64,000 nucleotides of DNA, from positions 62,001-126,000 of the forward strand of contig JANQHD010000028.1 in NCBI GenBank assembly GCA_028282805.1, read 5' to 3'. Shown in pieces: positions 42,955-46,003 of the stretch. Made by a program: the position numbers and the translations under genes. The notes beneath the pieces are model-generated. The model was given only the letters and a program-made list of their open reading frames with translations, ran no database searches and was not told the DNA's origin. Source of the stretch: Phycisphaeraceae bacterium (GTDB lineage Bacteria; Planctomycetota; Phycisphaerae; Phycisphaerales; Zrk34). Numbering within the stretch: the stretch's first letter is position 1; each line of letters starts with the position of its first letter.

Positions 42955-43272
42955 TTACTTGCGGCGGCGCAGCAGCAGCGGGGCGGCCAGGGCGAGCAGC
43001 GCCACGCTCGCCGGCTCGGGGATGACCTTGTCGGTGTCAGCGCGGAAGTCCATGAAGTCGCCCGCGTCGAACACGCCCACCGGTGAGTTGCCGACGAAGT
43101 CGATCTCCAACGCCGCGAACGTGTCGCCCGCGCCGCCGAGCGTGCTAGGGGTCTCGATCGGGTCGATGTAAGTGGCCACCACGTCCCACGAACCGAGGAA
43201 GTCCGTGCCGCCGGTGAACGTGGTCGGTGCGCCCGGCCCGGCCGTCCAGCCGGCCAACGCACTATTCCCCAT
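42955..43272 (-). pseudogene. PEP-CTERM protein remnant (C-terminal ~100 residues)
   Basis: The frame encodes a beta-rich piece (FTGGTDFLGSWDVVATYIDP, TFAALEIDFVGNSPVGVFDAGDFMDF) and a complete sorting tail VIPEPASVALLALAAPLLLRRRK. No signal peptide is present: the frame opens at an ATG formed in the last bases of the nuclease gene, with a stop two codons before it. So the 5' part of the gene has been lost at about 43262, where GC-rich sequence meets the AT-richer nuclease gene. No 5' half was found on the far side (44012-44056). Confidence 0.7.
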
Positions 43273-44011
43273 GGGCTACCTTGCGAAGCGTGACAGACAT
43301 CTGGTACTCGTGTAATTCGATGTGCTCTTGTCCATCGCACGCCATCAGCAGATCCTCGGTGATCTCTCGTGCGATGATAATGCCTCGAACCAGTTGATCG
43401 GATTCCGCGAGGTTGCGCTTGATCCAATTGACATAGCGTAACAACTGGCCGACTACCCGGTCGTATCCGCGGGATACCTTAAGTTCGATCACAACGAGCG
43501 CGTTATTTCGATCTACCGCCAGGATATCGATAAACCTGCCGCCGACGGGATACTCGATCCCGCTGATGCCTTCATCCTCGTATAAACGTAAGCCCGTTTC
43601 GATGATCTCTAAGTTCTTAGACAGGAAGTTCTGCAAGTCTTTTTCATATGCAAACTCTCTGCTGTCATCGTTGTCTGAATTCTCGTCTGGCGTTATTGCT
43701 ATGGTCGGAGTTGGGCTGTCACGCGTAATAGGCTGTGGGTGCTTCTCCTTGTCGTAGAGCACGAAATGCTTGCTATCTAATTGATAAAAAAGGTCGTCGT
43801 TCATCGTTGTGCGATGATAATGAACACGACTCGGAGCATTCGTAGACATTCGAAGCAAATGGGCGGTAACGGTCCCCTTCTTGATCTTAGGGAAGTTCGT
43901 GGTGAACCATTCGACCACCTGATCTCGCGAAATAACATCCCCTTTGCGGATGCCGAGTCGGTCGACCATTTCGAACATCAATTCACGAGTAGATTTTTCG
44001 TAAATCGGCAT
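43262..44011 (-). CDS. NucS-like (DUF91) PD-(D/E)XK nuclease-domain protein
   Basis: 249 residues. The C-terminal half has the NucS/DUF91 nuclease pattern: YEKDLQNFLSKNLEIIETGL, then GGRFIDILAVDRNNALVVIELKVSRG, placing D and the E-x-K pair, and GQLLRYVNWIKRNLA. The N-terminal ~100 residues look like a winged-helix domain (DVISRDQVVEWFTTNFPKIKKGTVTAHLLRMS), probably DNA-binding. Such proteins occur in mismatch repair or as restriction-like enzymes. Base composition is clearly more AT-rich than its neighbours, and it replaces the 5' end of a PEP-CTERM gene, so it is likely acquired. Confidence 0.75.
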   Translation of the reverse strand: MPIYEKSTRELMFEMVDRLGIRKGDVISRDQVVEWFTTNFPKIKKGTVTAHLLRMSTNAPSRVHYHRTTMNDDLFYQLDSKHFVLYDKEKHPQPITRDSPTPTIAITPDENSDNDDSREFAYEKDLQNFLSKNLEIIETGLRLYEDEGISGIEYPVGGRFIDILAVDRNNALVVIELKVSRGYDRVVGQLLRYVNWIKRNLAESDQLVRGIIIAREITEDLLMACDGQEHIELHEYQMSVTLRKVAHGE

Positions 44012-44056: not shown

Positions 44057-46003
44057 TTACATCGCTTCCCGCACGAAAGCGGTGGTGCGCTCAATGATCG
44101 CCTCCAGCTTCACCATCTCCGCCTTCTCTTCCGTGCGCGGTTTGAACTCGACCTCGTCGTTCGCCAGGCCCTTGTCGCCCACCGTCAGCCGCAGCGGGAT
44201 GCCGATCAGGTCGGCGTCCTTGAACTTCACGCCCGGCCGTTCGGCCCGGTCGTCCAGCAACACGTCCAACCCCTCGGCCTGCAACTTCTCATAAAGCTCG
44301 TTGGCCACCTCCGCCGCCCGCCCCTCGTACTTGATCGGCGTGATGACCACGTGGAACGGCGCGATGCTCATCGGCCAGACCACGCCGCCGTCGTCGTTGC
44401 CGCCGTCGCGTTCGATCGCCCCGGCGATGATGCGGTTGATCCCGATGCCGTAGCAGCCCATCAGCGGGTGCACTTCCTGCTGGTTCTCGTCGAGCACCGT
44501 GACCTTCAGCGATTGCGAGTACTTGTCGCCGAGCTTGAAGATGTGGCCGACCTCGATGCCCTTCGATTCCCGCAGCACGCCGCCGTCGTCCTTCGGCGAC
44601 GGGTCGCCTTCGGTGGCGTTGCGGATGTCGGCGACCTGTGTCCTGTGGAATTGTTCTTTGGGTTGGTAGTCTCTTTCCCAATTAAAGTGCATCACGTGCT
44701 GGCTTGCAGCGTTGGCGCCAGTGACCCAAAAACCACTGTGTGTCGCATCAGGGTCAATGACGACATATGTTCTTGCTGCGACGCCGGTGGTTAAGTCATT
44801 AACGATATGAGGGCCGACGTATCCGATCGGGAATCCCGCTGATTTTGCTTCTGATTCGTCCATCAGCGACAGACCTATGTTGTCTGATTTAAGGCTCATT
44901 TCTCGACCGTGAAAACTCGTCAAGAATTGCCGAAGCTTCGCCTCATTTAGTTCGTGATCACCTCGTACCACAGCTACCCAATAGAAAACGAATCCGTCGT
45001 TTTCGAATCCGTATTCTTTTCTGAGCTTATGCGCGGTTGCCTGTTCTTCGGTTGTTAAATCGCCTTCTGCTTTAAACACGAGAGTCTTCAGCGTATGACT
45101 AGGTTTAAGCTTACCCCCGGCAAACGTAGACCAACCTTTGCACAGATCATCAATACTCGACGCATTGGGTGTATGGACTTCGGCCAGTTCACCCGTTGGT
45201 GGCGAGTCTTCCACATATTTAGCCCCCGGCATGCCGGGGGCTATATTCCCTGAGAAGATCACAGATATTTCGCGGCTCCCGATCTCGCACTTCTCGACGT
45301 TGGCCGCGTAGTTGCCCTTGTCGCTGGCGAGCACCGTGTCTTCGCCGGTGGGGCTGGGGATCATGAACTCGTGGCTGGCGTTGCCACCGATCGGCCCGGC
45401 CTCGGCTTCGACCACCACGTACGGCACGCCGCACCGGGCGAAGACCCGGCAGTAGGCGTCGTACATCTTGTCGTACGTCTCGCTCAGACCGCCCGGTCCG
45501 TCCAGCGTCAGGTGGAACGAGTACGCGTCCTTCATCTGGAACTCGCGGCTGCGCAGCACGCCGAACCGTGGGCGGAACTCGTCGCGGAACTTCGTCTGGA
45601 TCTGGTACAGGTTGAGCGGAAGCTGCCGGTAGCTGCTGACGTAGGCGTCGAACAGCTTGGTGCAAACCTCTTCGTGGGTCGGGCCCATCGCCTGATGGCG
45701 GCCGTGGCGGTCCTTCACCACGAACAGGTTGTCGCCGTAGGCTTCGCGCCGGCCGGTCTGCTCCCACCACTCGACGGGCTGGAGCGTGGGCATGAACACC
45801 TCGACGGCGTCGGCGCGGTTCATCTCCTCGCGGACGATCTGCATGACCTTCCGCAGCACCGCCGCGCCCAGCGGTAGGTACGTGTACGAGCCGGCGGCGA
45901 CCTGCTGGATCAGGCCCGCGCGGAGCATCAGTTGGTGGCTGGGGACGACGGCCTCGGCCGGCACCTGCCGCAGGGTGGGGATCAGCGATCGCGTCCAACG
46001 CAT
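44057..46003 (-). CDS. proS: Prolyl-tRNA synthetase (bacterial type), mosaic
   Basis: 648 residues. Class II motif 1 region, motif 2 (FRDEFRPRFGVLRSREFQMKDAYSFH) and motif 3 (MGCYGIGINRIIAGAIE) flank an editing (INS) domain (about residues 260-460) with TPNASSIDDL, the conserved VVRGDHELNEAKL and closing ADIRNATEGDPSP. It charges proline and removes mischarged alanine. The DNA for residues ~255-455 (about 44640-45220) is visibly AT-richer than the rest and contains few of the GC-ending codons used elsewhere. At its 3' DNA border a 24-bp perfect palindrome (45220-45243) encodes IAPGMPGAK in frame. The domain order is normal. Confidence 0.95.
   Translation of the reverse strand: MRWTRSLIPTLRQVPAEAVVPSHQLMLRAGLIQQVAAGSYTYLPLGAAVLRKVMQIVREEMNRADAVEVFMPTLQPVEWWEQTGRREAYGDNLFVVKDRHGRHQAMGPTHEEVCTKLFDAYVSSYRQLPLNLYQIQTKFRDEFRPRFGVLRSREFQMKDAYSFHLTLDGPGGLSETYDKMYDAYCRVFARCGVPYVVVEAEAGPIGGNASHEFMIPSPTGEDTVLASDKGNYAANVEKCEIGSREISVIFSGNIAPGMPGAKYVEDSPPTGELAEVHTPNASSIDDLCKGWSTFAGGKLKPSHTLKTLVFKAEGDLTTEEQATAHKLRKEYGFENDGFVFYWVAVVRGDHELNEAKLRQFLTSFHGREMSLKSDNIGLSLMDESEAKSAGFPIGYVGPHIVNDLTTGVAARTYVVIDPDATHSGFWVTGANAASQHVMHFNWERDYQPKEQFHRTQVADIRNATEGDPSPKDDGGVLRESKGIEVGHIFKLGDKYSQSLKVTVLDENQQEVHPLMGCYGIGINRIIAGAIERDGGNDDGGVVWPMSIAPFHVVITPIKYEGRAAEVANELYEKLQAEGLDVLLDDRAERPGVKFKDADLIGIPLRLTVGDKGLANDEVEFKPRTEEKAEMVKLEAIIERTTAFVREAM
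45220..45243. repeat. 24-bp perfect palindrome inside proS
   Basis: TAGCCCCCGGCA and its exact complement, with no spacer. It is in frame and adds a Pro/Gly-rich loop to the protein, immediately before the editing domain. It sits at the switch from GC-rich to AT-rich sequence, as expected for a mobile palindromic element or a recombination joint. Confidence 0.7.

Follow-up and report, generated by a model that had tools for sequence, protein, structure and literature searches.

The INS editing domain of the proS gene of a Phycisphaeraceae bacterium (genome G000) differs sharply in composition and phylogeny from the catalytic body in which it sits. We consider it likely that this domain was exchanged en bloc for a divergent form, here called type B, and that recurrent recombination in conserved flanks imports divergent synthetase domains of this kind from a low-GC gene pool. 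The gene lies in the window, the whole 64,000-nucleotide stretch of DNA that was analysed, and its parts are listed in Table 1.

Assignment of proS to its family rests on NCBIfam PRK09194 and proS_fam_II and on Pfam tRNA-synt_2b, tRNA_edit and HGTP_anticodon, and the criteria for a bacterial-type prolyl-tRNA synthetase (ProRS) are met: a class II core, an INS domain between motifs 2 and 3, and a C-terminal anticodon-binding domain. In G000, the source of the window, the gene is single-copy and has no internal stop. A two-changepoint fit on third-position GC (GC3) located a block with a GC3 of 0.48-0.49 inside versus 0.93-0.94 outside, with a log-likelihood gain of 84; 60 shuffles gave gains of 9 or less. 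The first-pass annotation had reported a low-GC segment at 44640-45260 and identified it as the INS editing domain between motifs 2 and 3. The fitted limits agree with that segment to about 10 bases, and the identification is borne out by the position of the tRNA_edit match. The block fills the interval from GSR (residues 242-244) to VADIRNA (457), and its observed edges lie no more than a few codons from the INS domain borders. GC3 and phylogeny shift only within the block, not across the whole gene, and sharp edges were also observed in proS of two relatives, G007 and G003.

Table 1. Features of the proS gene and its low-GC3 block (positions in the window)
Feature	Coordinates	Strand	Basis
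proS gene for a 648-aa prolyl-tRNA synthetase of bacterial type that contains an INS domain	44057..46003	-	NCBIfam, Pfam, fold match
Low-GC3 block: foreign-looking INS editing-domain cassette, codons 245-455 (211 codons)	44639..45271	-	Change-point fit, type-B INS clade
Pfam tRNA_edit match, residues 279-443, inside block	44675..45169	-	Pfam
N-terminal catalytic region, native and GC-rich (GC3 0.94), ending in conserved SDKGNYAANVEKCEIG	45272..46003	-	Change-point fit
C-terminal region, native and GC-rich (GC3 0.93), with the anticodon-binding domain and, from VADIRNA onward, the second catalytic segment	44057..44638	-	Pfam, change-point fit
Lys306, invariant in 24 aligned ProRS	45086..45088	-	Alignment
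His436, in GANxxxxH motif, invariant in 24 aligned ProRS	44696..44698	-	Alignment
Palindrome ATTTAGCCCCCGGCATGCCGGGGGCTATAT, in-frame insert near 5' edge of block; its core has 18 copies dispersed over G000, this one included	45217..45246	.	

Codon use in the blocks is nearly even and closer to that of low-GC accessory genes than to that of core genes (RSCU r of 0.39 vs -0.09). Conserved and variable residues of the block have a GC3 of 0.49 and 0.44, respectively, in proS (L001), and of 0.44 and 0.38 in the corresponding block of IleRS (L254); outside the blocks both kinds of residue stand at 0.92-0.97 (L001, L025, L254). As the conserved residues of the block are as GC-poor as the variable ones, we conclude that it was replaced. 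Amino-acid turnover as the cause of the low GC3 was rejected, because conserved block codons would then have stayed GC3-high. C-to-T hypermutation was also rejected, since A as well as T is raised at third positions.

These data bear on an explanation without any DNA import, in which exposed segments evolve very fast in place under antagonistic selection, with a region-specific AT-biased process. Great divergence of the low-GC blocks even among near relatives, as also seen in MetRS (below), would fit this explanation, as would frequent new insertions, one of them a native palindrome. It does not predict conserved codons as GC-poor as variable ones, nor the near-equal frequency of all four bases at third positions of the blocks, which is unlike a deaminase signature. 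Nor is it easily reconciled with a GC-poor host that has a GC-richer type-B INS, or with a type-B clade that spans three families and contains sisters from two of them (L114 of f6 and L116 of f3). We regard it as improbable.

To follow the block among relatives, a first set of 30 proS orthologs was enlarged to 78 from the order, class and phylum and from a GTDB scan. Low-GC blocks are present in proS of three genera of one family (G000, G007 and G003), and the INS domain is at host composition in other members (G002, G004, G005, G006 and G008). Low GC in all close relatives, which would have refuted a swap, is therefore not what is found. The INS GC3 is at least 0.20 below that of the flanks in 9 of the 78 orthologs, and the difference is reversed in L112, where an AT-rich host (flanks 0.43) has a GC-richer INS (0.57). 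Across the 70 orthologs without type B, INS GC3 follows flank GC3 closely (r 0.92, slope 0.97); no such correlation exists among the eight type-B members (r -0.08), an observed independence from host composition. Many other relatives (G010, G013, G015, G019, G021, G023, G024, G027 and others) gave no bacterial-type ProRS match, only a weak C-terminal one, which suggests that they use an archaeal-type ProRS without INS.

Many of the relatives are metagenome-assembled genomes, and an assembly or binning artefact, or contamination, might produce such mosaics. This is hardly credible here: G007 (Planctomycetales bacterium ZRK34), which carries the proS block, is a complete genome in a single contig, and G060, with its MetRS block, is also a single-contig genome, so the blocks are not chimeras of metagenome assembly. 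The edges also match domain borders, the reading frame is intact, and the same site is affected in many independent assemblies.

The first-pass annotation had proposed separate phylogenies for the catalytic part and the INS domain, and the topologies differ, with AU rejections in both directions. In the INS tree, a divergent type-B clade comprises eight genomes from three families: L001, L002, L004 and L025 of family f1, L113 and L114 of f6, and L112 and L116 of f3. Its support is 100/99 in the 30-row tree, and its SH-aLRT is 98 in the 78-row tree. The tree of the catalytic part puts the same genes in their own families. Forcing type B to be monophyletic on the catalytic alignment costs 217 lnL units (AU p 1e-4), and family f1 as one clade is rejected on the INS alignment (lnL difference 95). 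A close pair illustrates the conflict: L002 and L028 are sisters by the catalytic part (99/93), and only L002 has a type-B INS. Type B was defined after the trees were seen, and the AU p-value is accordingly optimistic, although the likelihood gaps remain large. The INS domain is also short and fast-evolving, with long branches, so that the type-B clade could be inflated by long-branch attraction. With regard to a fusion of a free-standing editing factor of the INS superfamily (YbaK, ProXp) into ProRS, all matches in the searches made were ProRS-like; these trans-editing families were left out of the tree.

Since a low-GC INS is common to several genera of one family, a single ancient swap might be invoked, followed by vertical inheritance, in which selection on the mRNA or on the speed of translation at this domain maintained its low GC3. 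We disfavour this account as very unlikely. It does not allow for the observed conflict between the catalytic and INS trees, L004 has a type-B INS but a GC3 of 0.82, and type-A INS domains work at host GC3. Silent sites, moreover, should be randomised by 60-70% protein identity.

Gene calls for a wider survey were home-made, with an amino-acid-composition filter; length-based calls gave false mosaics, in which spurious antisense ORFs were fused to real genes. For internal low-GC3 blocks, proS heads the list both among 202 genes from 370 kb of G000 and among 232 genes from 418 kb of G007 (in the latter, gain 52.7, next 12.7). In 1.51 Mb of G000, with 992 gene calls, the five strongest blocks are those of IleRS (first), ProRS (second), ValRS, AlaRS and MetRS; next comes an ORF that its amino-acid composition marks as a false fusion. 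With that ORF excluded, blocks of equal strength occur in five of nine recognised synthetases and in none of about 983 other calls (Fisher p 2e-11). Some of the sampled G000 pieces were chosen because they hold synthetases, so this is the fair comparison, and the restriction to synthetases is observed within the sample only. No such block was seen in LeuRS, ThrRS, AspRS or CysRS of G000, or in a handful of further large housekeeping genes that could be identified from their motifs, such as rpoC, groEL, uvrA, mutS and lepA. Besides proS, the block-bearing synthetase loci of G000 are L178/L254 (IleRS), L210 (MetRS), L201 (AlaRS) and L212 (ValRS).

The IleRS block is CP1, the ValRS block is the segment between HRIPVW and DPDVLDTWFSS, the AlaRS block is a stretch of about 100 residues upstream of LYETYGFP, and the MetRS block is part of the anticodon-binding domain. 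Recurrence of the AlaRS and ValRS blocks is known from few genomes only. Specificity of the blocks for editing domains was considered and rejected, because LeuRS and ThrRS are clean and the MetRS block lies outside any editing domain; editing domains are thus among the sites hit, without being the general target. Our results thus go beyond the first-pass annotation, in that the swap recurs across three families and similar blocks occur in other synthetases, also outside editing domains.

MetRS provides a second case: 11 of 30 orthologs carry a low-GC3 block, at roughly the same position in each. In the congeners G029 and G060, nucleotide identity of the gene is 75-93% up to codon 371 (83-93% at codons 297-371), falls to 43-57% over codons 372-496, and past the block is 89% over the next 25 codons and 72% and then 88% in the two stretches that remain, a replacement observed within one genus. 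Among pairs of orthologs with blocks, segment identity is about 0.35 at any flank identity; where blocks are lacking, it climbs with flank identity, from 0.41 to 0.77. Such decoupling of segment from flank is the pattern that repeated replacement would give.

The INS domain of proS is not decayed: the frame is intact, Lys306 and His436 are invariant, and the fold is kept. Lys306 probably corresponds to the lysine that serves editing in other ProRS (K279 in E. coli). The predicted fold (model pLDDT 85) aligns to solved bacterial ProRS over residues 1-648 with a Z of 47. The new INS domain probably still edits, and hydrolysis of Ala-tRNA(Pro) is inferred from the kept fold and residues, without activity data.

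The palindrome within the block belongs to a dispersed 22-30 bp family, AGCCCCCGGCATGCCGGGGGCT, found at 18 places in G000 and in no more than one copy in each relative tested. Four other sites that we examined are intergenic and terminator-like. Given this distribution, the proS copy probably entered the block once this was already in place, or it arose in the same species pool. Just downstream of proS (43262-44011, minus strand) lies a gene with a DUF7669 and a NucS-type PDDEXK nuclease domain, mostly at a GC of about 0.48. A linked mobile element was rejected, because this low-GC NucS-like neighbour is absent beside other type-B proS genes, and it is probably an unrelated accessory gene. 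Elsewhere in G000 (contig C28:580-11371, L230), a cluster of wholly low-GC genes, with GC3 of 0.38-0.44, is probably a recently acquired island.

A donor of the INS domain was sought widely. Among 397 genomes of the class nothing exceeded about 46% identity, and 392 genomes of the phylum yielded no closer type-B match. A pattern search of GTDB contigs did not find it, nor did searches of viral contigs or of plasmids and phages, where only ordinary synthetase genes were present. The proposal of the first-pass annotation, recombination of the editing domain from a different lineage, is supported, in that neither of the two conditions set for its refutation was fulfilled. Recombination itself is inferred, and so is the different lineage, as no donor lineage was identified. 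Pairwise identity among type-B INS domains is only 31-47% (L114 and L116, at 66%, are the exception), and the donor pool, the nature of which we infer, must therefore be very diverse.

Under the import of domains by recombination that we favour, a divergent homologous type-B INS would arrive by horizontal transfer from a pool with a GC3 of about 0.5. The conserved coding stretches SDKGNYAANVEKCEIG and VADIRNA..GDPSP would be the most likely anchors for homologous recombination, a mechanism that is inferred. With anchors in conserved flanks, only the domain would be exchanged and the enzyme would stay whole. The same process has probably acted repeatedly in related Phycisphaerae and on IleRS CP1 and the MetRS, ValRS and AlaRS segments. 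It is possible, but we put it forward tentatively, that Phycisphaerae synthetases have dedicated hypervariable cassette sites, with whole exposed segments repeatedly replaced from a diverse low-GC mobile pool, comparable to the specificity domains of restriction enzymes. The driver would be an agent as yet unidentified, be it a toxin, an inhibitor or a phage factor, directed at the surfaces of synthetases; any selective reason is at present an inference.

Whole-gene transfer of tRNA synthetases is already well documented. Here replacement falls mainly on a few synthetases and hardly occurs among the almost one thousand other genes of the genome, and such synthetases look as if they were rebuilt one segment at a time. 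Essential multidomain enzymes can therefore be mosaics, and gene trees built on them confused. This raises the testable question of what selective force favours new surfaces, or new editing domains, in ProRS, IleRS, MetRS, ValRS and AlaRS. Our literature search found whole-gene homeoalleles only and no report of recurrent single-domain replacement inside synthetases, which is weak evidence of novelty.

Compared with bacterial-type ProRS with a cis-editing INS (PMC11295145), the proS product has the same architecture, fold and conserved editing residues; it differs in that its INS is of another source than the catalytic body. That INS also exceeds the shortest ones among relatives of the family by about 60 residues. 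The closest parallel among synthetases is biased transfer of homeoalleles, in which divergent forms with the same function are exchanged at one locus between lineages, probably by recombination in conserved flanks (PMC3191353). As with homeoalleles (PMC3191353), the spread of the divergent proS forms over genomes disagrees with the phylogeny of the remainder of the gene, and there is one form per genome at one locus, as in the single proS of G000. The unit of exchange in homeoalleles is the whole gene, whereas here it is a domain-sized block flanked by conserved parts of the same gene. In this respect the blocks resemble the target-recognition domains that are shuffled in restriction-modification specificity genes, where highly divergent, replaceable segments are set in a conserved frame; unlike those genes, the synthetases are essential housekeeping enzymes, with no known recognition target or arms race.
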